Assembly: GCA_021740785.1 (NCBI GenBank) | Contig: JAIOZI010000001.1 | Location: 124,001-188,000 of the forward strand | Reading direction: 5' to 3' | Source of the DNA: Melioribacteraceae bacterium | Lineage (GTDB): Bacteria; Bacteroidota; Ignavibacteria; Ignavibacteriales; Melioribacteraceae | DNA: 64,000 bases | Shown: in pieces, positions 35,944 to 41,590 of the stretch | Numbering within the stretch: the stretch's first letter is position 1 | How the letters are laid out: each line of letters opens with the position of its first letter | Translations under genes and position numbers: made by a program | The notes under the pieces: generated by a model | Told to the model about the DNA's origin: nothing | Databases searched by the model: none | What the model saw: the letters and a program-made list of their open reading frames with translations, nothing else

Positions 35944-37212
35944 ATGAAATTTATTGTTTTATTGCTTCTTGCAACAAGTGTATCCGTTTCTCAAGTTAAT
36001 TTTGATGATTATTTTCTCAACAAATCATTAAGAGTGGATTTCTACCACACGGGCGATGCACAAATAGAAATTATTTCGTTCGATGAAATGATTGAAGAAC
36101 CTTACTGGGGAGGTTCACACGTAAACTTGATCGATGATTTTAAGTACGGAAATTATTTTTTAGAAGTGTATGATTTTGAATCAAACCGGTTAATATATTC
36201 GAGAGGATTTTCTACTTTATTTCAAGAATGGCAGACGACTGCACAATCAAAGAAATTAGATATGAGTTTCAGCGGTTCTGTCTCTTTTCCATTTCCCAAA
36301 AATAAAATTGTAATGAAATTATTCAGGAGAGACAGAAAGAATAATTTTAATGAAATCTTTGATTTGGAAATATCCCCGGATGATTATTTTATTAAAAATG
36401 ATAACAGGAAACAGTTTGAGAATTTTAAAATTCATTTCTCAGGTGATTCCAAAGAGAAATTGGATATTGTATTCATACCGGATGGATATACAAAAGAAGA
36501 AATGGATAAATTCAGAAATGACTGTAAAAGATTTTCGGATTATCTTTTCAACTACGAGCCTTTCAAATCTAGCCCTGCCATGATAAATACTTGGGGTATT
36601 GCCGCCCCGTCTGATGAGAGCGGTACTGATATTCCCGGTGAAGATATTTGGGTCAACACTTTACTCAATTCATCTTTCTATACATTCGATAGTGAAAGAT
36701 ACTTGATGACAACCGATTATAAATCAGTAAAAGATTTAGCAGCTAATGCTCCTTATGATCAAATTATAATATTAGTCAATACTGATAAGTACGGCGGTGG
36801 AGGGATTTATAATTTTTATCTTACAACTGCGGCAGATCACCCGGTTTCGGAAAAAATATTTATTCATGAATTTGGACACAGTTTCGCAGGATTAGCTGAT
36901 GAATATTATACGTCTGATGTTTCTTATGAAGATTTTTATCCCCTTGATGTTGAACCTTGGGAGCCGAATATAACCACGATGGTTGATTTTGAATCCAAAT
37001 GGAAAAACATCATTAACTCGGAAACTCCAATTCCAACACCTAATGAAGATAGCTTCAAGGATGTGATTGGTGCATTTGAAGGAGCCGGTTATATGGCTAA
37101 GGGAATATATCGTTCCAGCCTATCAAGTATAATGATAACTTTATCTGCAGAAAGTTTTAATGAAGTAAGTAAAGATGTTTTGGGAAAACTCATTAAGTTT
37201 TATGCCGAGTAA
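35944..37212 (+). CDS. Secreted M64-family (IgA peptidase-like) metallopeptidase
   Basis: A 422-residue exported peptidase. A signal peptide (about residues 1-17) precedes an N-terminal beta-rich domain. The peptidase domain contains the core DIVFIPDGYTKEEMDKF and the zinc site HEFGHSFAGLADEYY (H308, E309, H312, then D318), the HExxH-xxG-x-xDEY pattern of M64 enzymes. No type IX sorting domain is present, so it is likely periplasmic or lipid-free extracellular by another path. Name-giving IgA cleavage is known for a Clostridium member only. The DUF4032 gene follows two bases after the stop. Confidence 0.88.
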   Translation: MKFIVLLLLATSVSVSQVNFDDYFLNKSLRVDFYHTGDAQIEIISFDEMIEEPYWGGSHVNLIDDFKYGNYFLEVYDFESNRLIYSRGFSTLFQEWQTTAQSKKLDMSFSGSVSFPFPKNKIVMKLFRRDRKNNFNEIFDLEISPDDYFIKNDNRKQFENFKIHFSGDSKEKLDIVFIPDGYTKEEMDKFRNDCKRFSDYLFNYEPFKSSPAMINTWGIAAPSDESGTDIPGEDIWVNTLLNSSFYTFDSERYLMTTDYKSVKDLAANAPYDQIIILVNTDKYGGGGIYNFYLTTAADHPVSEKIFIHEFGHSFAGLADEYYTSDVSYEDFYPLDVEPWEPNITTMVDFESKWKNIINSETPIPTPNEDSFKDVIGAFEGAGYMAKGIYRSSLSSIMITLSAESFNEVSKDVLGKLIKFYAE

Positions 37213-37214
37213 AA

Positions 37215-38429
37215 ATGAATAATAAAAATTTGGTTTTCAACTTTCATGATGAATACTCCGAGGAATTAAAAACTCTGCCTTGGGAAACGCCTTTAGAACA
37301 TTGGCAGGATAAGGGTGTTGAGATTATTGATTTACGTAAAGCACATTCCAGGCACTTGGTGCGTTTTATAAAAACAAAATCTTACTCGTTTGCAATCAAA
37401 CAAACTACTCCGCTTGCAGCTTATTTTGAATATGAAACTTACGGCAAACTTTTGATTAAAGGGATTCATACACTCATTCCCGCGGGTTATGTGATTTTTA
37501 AAGATCATCTTTTTTCAAAAAAGAAAGATGATAAAATTAATCAGAATGAATTTGCTTTTGTTATCACTGTTGTTGAAAGTAAATCAATTCCGCATTCCAT
37601 ACTGTTCAGTTGGGATTTTACCGATGAAAATAGAAGGGTAATTTTTAAAGCTGTAGCAGAACTGCTGGCTACACTTCATAATAAAAATATTTTTTGGGGT
37701 GATGCATCTCTTTCAAATATTCTTATAAAATTTATAAAAATAGTAGATGAGTGGGGTAGAACAAAAACAGAACTGAAAGCATTTTTAGCTGATGCTGAAA
37801 CAGTCCAGTTTTTTGATAATTTGAACGATCAATTTAAAGAAGATGAACTGAATTATTTTTTTAGTTCGTTAGATTGGTTTAATGATAAGTTTATTGAAGA
37901 TCGTGTAAAGCGAAAAATAATTAATGCCAAGTCGGACTTCCAATATTTGAAGGAGAAATACAATAATAAAATTGACCTGTTCAATAAAATAGATGATTTT
38001 GAAAAAGAAACGGGGCTTAATGTCAAGGAGCATTTTTATCAAGTTGAGGACAAAAATTCTCTTGAATCCATACTAAAGCAAATTGAAGAACATAAATGGT
38101 ATTTGAATGAAAATTGTGAAGACGAGATTTCATTAGTAGAGGCTGCAAAAGACTGGGTGGAGATTATTTATCACCCGATCATAAATGAATTTGAAAAATT
38201 TGATTCACCTAATTTATTCCCGTATACAAATTCAGTAAGTTTATATGTTCAAATTATGGCTCATAAATACTATCTCAGTATTGAAAAGGGTAAAGATGTA
38301 GGTATTAAAACAGCAATCCTAAGTTATAGTGAAAAGTATGCAGAAAAGGACGAATCAGTTGTAACGGCTATAAAAAATTTAATAAACAGAATAATTAAGA
38401 TTTTCCCTTATAAAAATATTTTGGAATAA
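37215..38429 (+). CDS. DUF4032 kinase-like protein
   Basis: A 404-residue protein of the DUF4032 group, related to lipopolysaccharide kinases. N-terminal LPWETPLEHW and HSRHLVRFI match the family. A protein-kinase-like core shows SFAIKQ (ATP lysine candidate), LHNKNIFWGDASLSNILI (catalytic-loop-like Asp and Asn) and FLADAET (metal-binding DFG-like Asp). A C-terminal helical domain of about 180 residues follows. Substrate is unknown. It lies two bases after an M64 peptidase gene and three before a SpoIIE-type phosphatase, so the two may act as an opposing pair. Confidence 0.72.
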   Translation: MNNKNLVFNFHDEYSEELKTLPWETPLEHWQDKGVEIIDLRKAHSRHLVRFIKTKSYSFAIKQTTPLAAYFEYETYGKLLIKGIHTLIPAGYVIFKDHLFSKKKDDKINQNEFAFVITVVESKSIPHSILFSWDFTDENRRVIFKAVAELLATLHNKNIFWGDASLSNILIKFIKIVDEWGRTKTELKAFLADAETVQFFDNLNDQFKEDELNYFFSSLDWFNDKFIEDRVKRKIINAKSDFQYLKEKYNNKIDLFNKIDDFEKETGLNVKEHFYQVEDKNSLESILKQIEEHKWYLNENCEDEISLVEAAKDWVEIIYHPIINEFEKFDSPNLFPYTNSVSLYVQIMAHKYYLSIEKGKDVGIKTAILSYSEKYAEKDESVVTAIKNLINRIIKIFPYKNILE

Positions 38430-38432
38430 ATA

Positions 38433-39671
38433 ATGCAGCATAAAAAAATACTCAGAACTATTGAAACAGTTGCTTCAAAAAAGTTTTCTTCAGAAAAAGA
38501 ACTTCTTACAGAAGTATTGAATTTAATTGTAAAAGATGATCAATTTAGTGTAACTGGCGGAAGACTTTGGAAACTTGATACTCAACTAAAAGCATATAGA
38601 TTAGTTTATCAATTAGGAAATGTTCAGCATATTGAAGATGATTTTATTTTAAAAGTTGACGACTACCCGGTATTTAATATAATCACAAGAGAACGTACTG
38701 TGCTGGCTAATGAAACAAATCAGCAGCTTATAGAAAAAGGTATTTTTAGATATTCGGCATCAGGTATTGGTTATAAAACTAAAATTGACGGGAAATATTT
38801 ATACCAGTACTTATTGGCTGTCAATAGTGAAGAAATTGATGATGATCTTCGGTATACGCTTAATATTGTTGCGACTGTTGTTACATCAAAAATTAAAGAA
38901 AGAAGTATTTCCGATTCACGTAAAAACTTAATAATGGATCTTGACAAAGCAAAGCATTTAATCAGAAGCATTTTACCGGAACATGAATATCATTTTCATA
39001 ATTATGTCTTATTCGGAATAACTATTCCGGCTCAAATATTAGGTGGTGATTTTTATGATTATCTTAAAATTGGTGATGATGAAAGTAGAATTGCAATTGC
39101 AGTTGGAGATGCTGCCTCAAAGGGAGTAAGCGCTGCTGCAGAAGCTATGTATATTTCAGGTGCGCTGAGAATGGCGAGTACATTCCAAATGAAGATATCT
39201 CCTATGATGTACAGGATGAACGAATTAATAAATAAAATATTTAGCGATGATAGATTTGCTTCACTATTTTATTGTGAATTATCAAATGATAAAAAAGGTA
39301 TTTGCTTATACGCTAATGCCGGTCATAATCCCCCGATATTATTTTCGAATAAAGATAAATCGATATCGTATTTACAGCCTACGGGACCCTTATTAGGACC
39401 TGCCCCGCACTCAAAATATGATACAGATAGTATGATTTTTGAAAAAGGTGATATTTTGATCATCTATTCGGACGGTGTAACTGAAGCTGCAAATGATGAT
39501 TTCGATTTCTATGAGGAAGAAAGATTGGAAAAAGTAATTCGCAAAGTTACCGATCTTTCCCCAAAAGAAATTGCTTTAACTATATTGGATGATGTTGAAA
39601 AGTTTTCTACTTCCAACAGTAAATATCAAGATGATAAAACGATTGTCGTAATAAAGCGAAAGGATAATTAA
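38433..39671 (+). CDS. SpoIIE/RsbU-type PP2C phosphatase with GAF-like sensor
   Basis: A 412-residue serine/threonine phosphatase. A GAF-like sensory N-terminus (about 1-165) and a short coiled link precede the PPM domain: ILGGDFYDYLKIG, VGDAASKGVSAAAEA, ANAGHNPP, YSDGVTEAAND and DDKTIVV carry the metal-binding Asp residues. Such proteins dephosphorylate anti-sigma antagonist or other Ser/Thr substrates. It starts three bases after the DUF4032 kinase-like gene and shares one base with the PduS-like gene (TAATG), so all are probably one transcript. Confidence 0.87.
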   Translation: MQHKKILRTIETVASKKFSSEKELLTEVLNLIVKDDQFSVTGGRLWKLDTQLKAYRLVYQLGNVQHIEDDFILKVDDYPVFNIITRERTVLANETNQQLIEKGIFRYSASGIGYKTKIDGKYLYQYLLAVNSEEIDDDLRYTLNIVATVVTSKIKERSISDSRKNLIMDLDKAKHLIRSILPEHEYHFHNYVLFGITIPAQILGGDFYDYLKIGDDESRIAIAVGDAASKGVSAAAEAMYISGALRMASTFQMKISPMMYRMNELINKIFSDDRFASLFYCELSNDKKGICLYANAGHNPPILFSNKDKSISYLQPTGPLLGPAPHSKYDTDSMIFEKGDILIIYSDGVTEAANDDFDFYEEERLEKVIRKVTDLSPKEIALTILDDVEKFSTSNSKYQDDKTIVVIKRKDN

Positions 39672-40987
39672 TGAGTTTATCCGATAAGATTTTTGAAGCC
39701 GGTGTTGTCGGTGCCGGTGGAGCAGGATTTCCGACTCATATAAAAGCAAATTCACAAGTTGAATTTATGCTTGCAAATGGTGCGGAATGCGAACCGCTGA
39801 TCCATAAAGATTTTGAAATAATGGTGAATTTTCCGAAAGAAATAATTCGCGGAATGGAGATAATGCTGGAACAGACTAAAGCTAAGCGCGGTTATTTCGG
39901 AATTAAATCAAAGAATGCGGCAGCAGTTGATGCGATAAGTGCAAATCTCGAAAACGGTAAAATTGAAATGTGTTTTTTGGGTGATTTTTATCCATCCGGT
40001 GATGAGTATGAACTCGTATACGCTGCTACAAAAAGATTAATACCTCCGCACGGATTACCGTTGGATGTTGGTTGTGTTGTTAATAATGTTGAAACACTTT
40101 ACAATGTGGCAATGGCATCAGAAGGAAAACCTGTTACTAAAAAATTTGTAAGTATTGCGGGCGCTGTAAAAACACCATGCTCGTTTTGGGCGCCAATCGG
40201 TACAAGTTTTAAAGAGCTTATTAAAATGGCAGGCGGTGCTACAACGAAAGATTACGGTTTATTTGTCAGCGGATTAATGATGGGTACATTAACGTTTGAT
40301 GAAAACGAGGTTGTAACAAAAACTACTGCCGGTTTAATCATTCTTCCCTCCGATCATTATTTGATCGACAGGATGAACCGACCGATGAAAGACATGAATA
40401 GAATAGGAAAATCTGCTTGTGATCAATGTAGTTATTGCACTGAATTTTGTCCCCGATACCTGCTTGGATATGATGTTCAGCCTCACAAAGTGATGCGGTC
40501 TCTTGAGTTTACGAAAACAGGTGAATCGGTTTGGAATCAATATGCGGATCTTTGCTGCATGTGCGGGTTATGTTCATTGTATGCATGTCCCGAAGATTTG
40601 TATCCGCGTGAAGCCTGCGGGCAGGGGAAAGAGCATTTGAGAGAGATCGGCGAAAAATATGAACAGAAAAAACCGGTAAAAGTACACCCGATAAAAGAGG
40701 GAAGAAGAGTTCCACTAAAACAACTAATGAAAAGACTTGATGTTTTAAAGTATAATGTGGACACACCATTTACCGATAAAAAATTAATCCCGCAGAATGT
40801 AACTATTAAATTGAAACAGCATGTCGGAGTTCCGGCTCGTGCGGTTGTTGCAATCGGAGACGAAGTTTCTGAAGGAGATTTAATAGGAAGAATTGATGAA
40901 GGCAAATTAGGGACAAATGTGCATTCATCGATTAGCGGAATTGTTACGCAGGTTTCTGATGAGTATATAAAAATTGCATCAAATTAA
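39671..40987 (+). CDS. PduS-like flavin/iron-sulfur electron-transfer protein (RnfC family)
   Basis: A 438-residue RnfC/PduS homologue. In microcompartments PduS moves electrons from NADH to reduce cobalamin. N-terminal flavin/NADH loop GVVGAGGAGFPTHIK, NADH-dehydrogenase-like core ANGAECEPLIHKD, SLBB domain (APIGTSFKELIKMAGG), and two 4Fe-4S sites: CDQCSYCTEFCP and CCMCGLCSLYACP. A C-terminal barrel-sandwich region (GVPARAVVAIGDEVSEGDL) follows. Together with the adjacent PduT-like shell gene it points to a microcompartment electron-transfer module. It overlaps the phosphatase gene by one base. Confidence 0.86.
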   Translation: MSLSDKIFEAGVVGAGGAGFPTHIKANSQVEFMLANGAECEPLIHKDFEIMVNFPKEIIRGMEIMLEQTKAKRGYFGIKSKNAAAVDAISANLENGKIEMCFLGDFYPSGDEYELVYAATKRLIPPHGLPLDVGCVVNNVETLYNVAMASEGKPVTKKFVSIAGAVKTPCSFWAPIGTSFKELIKMAGGATTKDYGLFVSGLMMGTLTFDENEVVTKTTAGLIILPSDHYLIDRMNRPMKDMNRIGKSACDQCSYCTEFCPRYLLGYDVQPHKVMRSLEFTKTGESVWNQYADLCCMCGLCSLYACPEDLYPREACGQGKEHLREIGEKYEQKKPVKVHPIKEGRRVPLKQLMKRLDVLKYNVDTPFTDKKLIPQNVTIKLKQHVGVPARAVVAIGDEVSEGDLIGRIDEGKLGTNVHSSISGIVTQVSDEYIKIASN

Positions 40988-41008
40988 TTTTCTGAAAGGA
41001 AAAATATT

Positions 41009-41560
41009 ATGGAAATGAATTCAATTGGATTAATAGAAATGACCAGCATTGCATCCGGTATGGAAGCGGCTGATATAATGTTAAAAACATCCGAGGTCGA
41101 ATTACTAATTTCACGGACAATATGTTCCGGTAAGTATATGGTTTTAATTGGAGGAGATGTTGCAGCTGTTCAAACTGCAGTTGATGCAGCAGCCGAAACG
41201 ATCGAATATGCGGTAATAGATACTTTCGTAATTCCGAATGTTCACCCGGATATTTTTCCGGCACTTTCAGGTCACAGCGGAATTGAGCAGTTGGAAGCTC
41301 TTGGAATTCTTGAATCTTTCTCCGTTGCATCTTTAATCGAAGGTGCGGATGCAGCTGTAAAAGCAGCGACTGTTAAAATAATAGAAATTCGTCTTGCAAT
41401 GGCATTAGGCGGAAAAGCATTCTGTACTATTACCGGTGAGGTTGCGGCAGTGAGAAGTGCGGTCGATTCCGGGGCTCAGGTGATTGCAGATAAAGGATTA
41501 CTAGTTAATAAAGTAGTAATTGCTCAACCGCGTCCAGAATTGCTTAGTGAAATGATTTAA
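41009..41560 (+). CDS. Tandem-BMC microcompartment shell protein, PduT-like
   Basis: A 183-residue shell protein with two BMC domains (about residues 4-90 and 95-182). It has the PduT pattern: GLIEMTSIASGMEAADIML at the start, the RTICSGKY segment with C39, the residue equivalent to the cysteine that binds a 4Fe-4S cluster in the pore of PduT trimers. The second domain starts EALGILESFSVASLIEGAD. It fits electron transfer across a shell, served by the PduS-like protein encoded 21 bases upstream. No other shell, enzyme or encapsulation gene is in the window. AAAGGA lies before the ATG. Confidence 0.92.
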   Translation: MEMNSIGLIEMTSIASGMEAADIMLKTSEVELLISRTICSGKYMVLIGGDVAAVQTAVDAAAETIEYAVIDTFVIPNVHPDIFPALSGHSGIEQLEALGILESFSVASLIEGADAAVKAATVKIIEIRLAMALGGKAFCTITGEVAAVRSAVDSGAQVIADKGLLVNKVVIAQPRPELLSEMI

Positions 41561-41565
41561 TTTTA

Positions 41566-41590
41566 GGGAGACGCTTTAATCGCGTCTCCC
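41566..41590 (+). terminator. Perfect hairpin between PduT-like gene and C69 dipeptidase
   Basis: A nine-base perfect stem (GGGAGACGC/GCGTCTCCC) with a seven-base loop lies between convergent genes, six bases after the PduT-like stop. Neither side has a strong U-run, so it may act as a weak bidirectional terminator. Confidence 0.6.

Follow-up and report, generated by a model that had tools for sequence, protein, structure and literature searches.

The window considered here is a stretch of 64,000 nucleotides from the genome of a Melioribacteraceae bacterium (NCBI GenBank assembly GCA_021740785.1, contig JAIOZI010000001.1, positions 124,001 to 188,000), in which a kinase-like gene, a phosphatase gene and the genes of a PduS-like oxidoreductase and a PduT-like bacterial microcompartment (BMC) shell protein follow one another on the forward strand. 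It sits on the contig designated C34 in an assembly of 4.85 Mb and 115 contigs that is 99.9% complete. The genes, together with the upstream neighbour of the kinase-like gene, are the following.

35944..37212, + strand: M64 peptidase gene (Pfam PF09471/PF16217), upstream neighbour of the kinase-like gene
37215..38429, + strand: DUF4032 kinase-like protein (PF13224, 43.7 bits, cut-off 23.8; its Pkinase match is below cut-off)
38433..39671, + strand: SpoIIE/RsbU-type PP2C phosphatase (PF07228, 153 bits) with an N-terminal alpha/beta domain
39671..40987, + strand: PduS-like NADH/flavin mononucleotide (FMN)/4Fe-4S oxidoreductase, RnfC-like (Complex1_51K, SLBB, Fer4_17 and RnfC_N)
41009..41560, + strand: PduT-like tandem-BMC shell protein with pore cysteine C39 (BMC domain in two stretches, Pfam)

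The kinase-like and phosphatase genes are separated by 3 bases, the phosphatase and PduS genes overlap by 1 base, and 21 bases lie between PduS and PduT. The four genes, their order and spacing had been given by a first-pass annotation of the stretch and agree exactly with the open reading frame (ORF) list, the sequence and Pfam. The position of C39 within RTICSGKY, taken from the same source, was confirmed, and the lack of hexameric shell or vertex genes nearby that it reported extends to the whole of the window's contig, where the searches revealed no further PF00936 or PF03319 gene. No diol dehydratase occurs among the Pfam matches of the 9 genes between about 35.0 and 44.1 kb, a family-directed search of the genome not having been made. 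The M64 peptidase gene stops 2 bases ahead of the kinase-like gene, and the string is longer than four genes.

The PduS-like protein contains the Complex1_51K, SLBB, Fer4 and RnfC_N domains and two tetracysteine motifs, C250/253/256/260 and C295/298/301/306, which are kept in 72/72 rows (matches above 500 bits). The PduT-like protein has the tandem BMC domains and the pore cysteine, position 39 being C in all 73 rows compared (matches above 240 bits), and PduT-type structures, 3pac and 3n79 among them, align with it; the window is included in both sets of rows. Against NCBIfam, the PduT-like protein scored 121.1 bits with eut_PduT (cut-off 250.3), and the best model for the PduS-like protein was rnfC, with 240.8 bits (cut-off 245.95). 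Since both scores fall under their cut-offs, the labels PduS-like and PduT-like are preferred to a curated equivalog name. Seventeen PduT rows from the order are 73-87% identical, and one row, from an ethanolamine-like clustered locus, is at 59%. Outside the order, PduT is 66-73% identical in Acidobacteriota, where it adjoins PduS with no other shell gene in the stretch read, and in Desulfuromusa and relatives, where it lies inside a locus read here as ethanolamine-like, with a dehydrogenase, BMC-H and BMC-P. The nearest row to the window in the PduS tree is L118, from a Melioribacteraceae bacterium, and other near rows come from Ignavibacteriae and Bacteroidetes.

The remaining shell genes were found elsewhere in the same genome by searches with PF00936 and PF03319, as the first-pass annotation had proposed to check: two BMC-H genes on contig C51, two BMC-P genes on C77 and one BMC-P gene on C25. 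No locus holding BMC-H and BMC-P together was found in this genome, C51 carrying BMC-H only and C77 and C25 BMC-P only. Among 38 near genomes, own included, PF00936 matched in 37 and PF03319 in 33, many of them with equal gene numbers at separate places. The second BMC-H gene occupies the same site in 10/10 loci compared, with ruvX-, ybbR- and tmk-like neighbours in nine of them (the names are our reading). The single BMC-P gene was called in 10 of 11 loci and lies beside a dprA-like gene in all 11; in the eleventh (G032) it was skipped by the ORF picker and located there by the PF03319 search. This picker, used for the locus comparisons, takes the longest ORF, and an antisense ORF masked PduT in L043, L086 and L161, among others. 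The BMC-P pair is followed by a gene read as a sigma factor in both loci that were fully read.

The co-occurrence of these genes was determined across the order, in a set of 164 genomes (all genome tallies include the window's own). PduS was found in 112 genomes, of which 105 were used; seven were dropped, as their sole match scored 384-422 bits (eut/PVM-like), and G434 was retained, its two fragments scoring 365 and 389 bits at 66-74% identity. PduS of this type is thus present in 105/164 genomes, BMC-P in 132/164 and the phosphatase in 144/164. PduS occurs in 101 of the 132 genomes with BMC-P as against 4 of the 32 without (Fisher p 2e-11, ignoring kinship), whereas for the phosphatase the figures are 115/132 and 29/32 (Fisher p 0.77, again ignoring kinship). 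PduS thus tracks BMC-P and the phosphatase does not, so that the PduS-PduT pair probably belongs to the shell and the phosphatase probably does not. The phosphatase is kept in 26 genomes lacking both BMC-P and PduS (4, 1 and 21 from the families denoted f1, f2 and f3, respectively), several of which are incomplete. Altogether, the phosphatase occurs without this PduS in 51 genomes, and PduS without a detected phosphatase in 12.

The M64 gene is preceded by pyrE-like, pterin-4a and clpC-like genes (from the ORF list and Pfam, clpC and pyrE being our reading), and many relatives, whether they have PduS-PduT or not, also carry M64 upstream of the phosphatase. The old gene string is clpC-like, pterin-4a, pyrE-like, M64 and phosphatase, and the kinase-like gene is a patchy passenger between the last two. 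Among 80 loci, 74 bear PduS, and in 40 of these the phosphatase is directly upstream of it, mostly overlapping or a few bases apart; the gene upstream of the phosphatase is then M64 (29), the kinase (2), pyrE (1) or another gene (6), or the contig ends there (2). Twelve loci were read in which the phosphatase is not beside PduS. Six of these are from f1/f2 genomes without this PduS in which the phosphatase is kept (G007, G022, G477, G478, G480 and G030, the last having a clustered locus that includes a more distant PduS). With the exception of G478, these loci cover the upstream side, and M64 directly precedes the phosphatase in 5/5. Directly downstream, G007, G477 and G478 have an aspartokinase of what is read as a thr-type cluster, G022 and G030 a short-chain dehydrogenase/reductase (SDR) gene, and G480 a different gene. 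In several relatives, PduT too is followed by thr-type or SDR genes.

The phosphatase itself carries a PF07228 domain with the conserved metal Asp, and we take D206, D226, D347 and D401 to be the metal ligands. Its predicted structure (mean predicted local distance difference test score, pLDDT, 85) gave the RsbU/RsbW structure 3ke6 as top Foldseek match (E 9e-14), and among the 50 matches listed nearly all are PP2C-type phosphatases. The N-terminal domain may be GAF-like, to judge by the succession of its predicted helices and strands. The PF07228 domain and the PP2C fold are common to the RsbU/SpoIIE-type phosphatases; unlike in those systems, no STAS partner is present among the 9 neighbouring genes scanned by Pfam. 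In 7/7 f3 loci read (L222, L228-L232, L234), an aldehyde dehydrogenase-like gene of 454-456 amino acids comes next after the phosphatase, whether the genome has BMC-P or not.

Residues K62, E72, D163, N168 and D193 of the kinase-like protein do not vary across 21 aligned rows, which come from 20 genomes; by analogy with protein kinases, these presumably represent the catalytic Lys, Glu, Asp and Asn and the metal Asp. The profile of 14 kinase rows found no credible relative in the PDB, and the AlphaFold model was poor (pLDDT 55) and was not used, so that the kinase fold is unconfirmed. The gene occurs in 3/38 near genomes, own included (2/37 others), one weak, stop-broken match being left out, and in 19/395 genomes of the phylum, own included. 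It stands beside the phosphatase in three of these 19 (G000, G020 and G362) and in a fourth case, L118; most of the other kinase loci were read with 1.5 kb flanks, and for G034 about 8 kb was read on either side. In G362, an f3 genome, the order is M64, kinase, phosphatase, and PduS is on another contig. The PduS tree groups G000, G020 (L136) and L118 in a single supported clade.

These data suggest that PduS-PduT is most likely the redox fragment of a scattered microcompartment of the FRAG type, placed behind a string of housekeeping genes, and that the kinase and phosphatase do a separate job. The gene content, its dispersal, the conservation of the cofactor cysteines and the co-occurrence of PduS with vertex genes, with none for the phosphatase, are what the genomes show directly. 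The BMC-H pair, the BMC-P pair and the single BMC-P, encoded in separate clusters, would make up the remainder of the shell. PduS would accept electrons from NADH via FMN and two 4Fe-4S clusters, and the PduT shell trimer, holding a 4Fe-4S cluster in its pore through C39, would pass them across the shell to or from a cargo enzyme. The cassette is probably expressed by read-through and translational coupling from the upstream string. Such an electron-port role is our best guess, proposed because PduS retains its eight cluster cysteines and PduT its C39, as in the PDU-type pair.

The PDU-type PduS is described as binding FMN and two Fe-S clusters, oxidising NADH and interacting with PduT. The PduT trimer is said to bind a 4Fe-4S cluster by means of a conserved cysteine from each subunit, in the motif C-P/S/A-G-K/R/S-Y/F; according to the same source, electron transfer at the shell has been proposed for the PDU and GRM systems (PMC6325248). 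The window shares with these the adjacent pduS and pduT genes, the same four PduS domains, the two tetracysteine motifs and the pore motif C-S-G-K-Y. It differs in that the flanking Pfam matches include no diol dehydratase, glycyl radical enzyme or B12 gene (a genome-wide search for these was not made), that PduL and a close PduP/EutE-like dehydrogenase were not found in this genome, and that the PduT-like protein is below the eut_PduT cut-off.

The FRAG microcompartments, as presented by Sutter et al. 2021 (PMC8217296), have scattered shell genes with three BMC-P, mostly remote from known enzymes, and Ignavibacteriae are among their hosts; that survey assigned them no function and expected more genomes to reveal one. 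The likeness lies in the distribution of the shell genes of this genome over C34, C51, C77 and C25, at the same sites in the relatives compared, and in the three BMC-P genes, which are likened by number and not by clade in the published tree. The main text of the survey (PMC8217296) does not feature PduS, the kinase or the phosphatase, although PduS may figure in its supplementary gene lists. A literature search on FRAG shell proteins returned this survey alone. For Melioribacter roseus, probably of the same family as the genome of the window, Axen et al. 2014 (PMC4207490) count seven BMC-P genes spread over five loci, of which four are satellite or satellite-like, and a PVM-like locus with a class II aldolase is described there, whereas no BMC-H plus BMC-P locus was found here. 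Searches of the literature gave nothing relevant joining microcompartments with a SpoIIE phosphatase and nothing on DUF4032; it is not claimed that the combination is unpublished.

Several observations weigh against this assignment. PduS of this type is absent from 31/132 BMC-P genomes and present in 4/32 genomes without BMC-P, of which G428 is 99% complete and the other three 75 to 87%, and chance alone does not account for how tightly phosphatase and PduS are linked in f1/f2. No cargo enzyme was identified. PduL (PF06130) was not found in 35/38 genomes, own included, and the three that have it (G006, G008 and G030) carry it inside a clustered locus read as PVM-like. Nor was a close PduP/EutE-like dehydrogenase found in this genome, the only match at E <= 1e-20 being a 539-aa frame of 31% identity, which on our reading is probably a housekeeping dehydrogenase; the PDU combination of PduL and a PduP-type aldehyde dehydrogenase is thus lacking here. 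A class II aldolase encoded a few genes from the single BMC-P was considered as shell-specific cargo and rejected, as it is found in most genomes without BMC-P: matches at E <= 1e-35 occur in 147/164 genomes, including 28/32 without BMC-P (a tally made by eye, with weaker paralogues counted).

The first-pass annotation offered two readings, a satellite locus feeding electrons into a microcompartment encoded elsewhere, or a shell-less electron-transfer unit under Ser/Thr phosphorylation control. The former is supported in so far as shell genes do exist elsewhere in the genome and PduS tracks BMC-P. As in a satellite, only part of the shell genes is present, the sole tandem-BMC gene on the window's contig, but the main locus with BMC-H and BMC-P that the definition presupposes (Axen 2014, Sutter 2021) was not found, and for this reason "fragment" suits PduS-PduT better. 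The shell-less unit, with PduT as a free Fe-S trimer, is extremely unlikely: no shell gene lies beside PduS-PduT, and G428 has PduS with no detected BMC-P, but BMC-H and BMC-P are present in this very genome and across the order PduS follows BMC-P. A decaying relic of a lost pdu or eut locus, which would account for an orphan pair with no signature enzyme beside it (Pfam) and for the PduS of G008, interrupted by a stop, is likewise very improbable in view of the identity of PduT across the order, the retention of all cofactor cysteines and the presence of this PduS in 105 genomes.

Control of PduS-PduT or of the compartment through Ser/Thr phosphorylation by the phosphatase, and by the kinase where present, in a dedicated f1/f2 regulatory operon is the alternative with most to commend it, yet it too is unlikely. 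Phosphatase and PduS are adjacent in 67/67 f1/f2 genomes holding both (64 f1, 3 f2), mostly within a few bases or overlapping; the pair is kept while the upstream gene varies, with L078 and L083 having it, with PduT, in a different neighbourhood; and the active-site residues of the kinase are conserved. On the PduS tree of 79 rows the phosphatase-linked state needs 3 changes, against a shuffled mean of 25.9, with unlinked L166 and L170 inside the linked clade and linked L169 branching near the Acidobacteriota rows, so that linkage may either be ancestral and lost in f3 or have been gained in f1 and f2. In f3, however, the two genes are apart in all 26 genomes holding both, the phosphatase persists where PduS is gone, and its presence is unrelated to that of BMC-P. 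The kinase is confined to 3/38 near genomes and occurs in G362 apart from PduS. Kinase-phosphatase control had been the default reading and was demoted to a rival by the order-wide counts and the PduS-less loci; the comparison of neighbourhoods proposed by the first-pass annotation, which named missing linkage in relatives as the outcome that would speak against its idea, went largely that way, the f1/f2 adjacency being the part that stood. In f1/f2 the phosphatase and PduS are likely co-translated, judging from the gene spacing, but the overlapping start may equally be mere borrowing of expression; other shell sites also lie among housekeeping-looking genes. Since the phosphatase stays where PduS or the shell is lost, no special phosphorylation control is needed, and beyond gene adjacency the regulatory reading is not supported. 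It is quite improbable, too, that a constitutive microcompartment without an aldehyde core carries out a redox reaction via PduS-PduT with its electron port switched through Ser/Thr phosphorylation by the sensor-PP2C phosphatase, joined in one small clade by the DUF4032 kinase.

Some further features of the loci deserve mention. A perfect inverted repeat, GGGAGACGC...GCGTCTCCC, at window positions 41566-41590 lies directly 3' of PduT, with a convergent C69 peptidase gene beyond it; it may mark the operon end, and it is absent from the output of the terminator scan. The promoter scan gave 19 sites where 27 are expected by chance and was uninformative. In G008, a single contig, PduS (L041:8646-9958) is split into two ORFs by an in-frame stop, and a clustered PVM-like locus is also present. 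Two f3-type loci, L046:6153-9860 and L174, have short-chain dehydrogenase-like and aldehyde dehydrogenase-like genes directly ahead of PduS-PduT, a possible cargo lead (the second of these in L046 is our reading).

The second BMC-H (L037:10186-10962 on C51 of the own genome; also L216, L217, L218, L219 and L220) shows, in 14/14 genomes examined, own included, a conserved C-terminal motif of about 40 residues (LNVHxLRxLAR...FPIxGREISxANR) and a long linker that is often acidic. The tail is also present in G018, G027 and G034, genomes without BMC-P in which the BMC domain scores low, and this BMC-H may have a shell-independent role. A BMC-H with a related tail occurs in the ethanolamine-like microcompartment locus of Desulfuromusa (L168, L177), beside close relatives of PduS-PduT that come from outside the phylum. 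Pfam gave only sub-cut-off matches to Rho_N, SAP and FANC_SAP for the tail in two Desulfuromusa rows, none in the own-genome row and an unrelated PDH_C match in one further row.

This is a real, well-conserved locus, and it most likely represents one fragment of a microcompartment class that is known but unexplained. It also calls for caution, in that the neighbours of scattered shell genes should not be read as their regulation. The presence of PduS with BMC-P across the whole order, with PduL in only 3/38 genomes, points to a redox cargo, and the genomes of this order offer a set in which the cargo of FRAG microcompartments can be sought.

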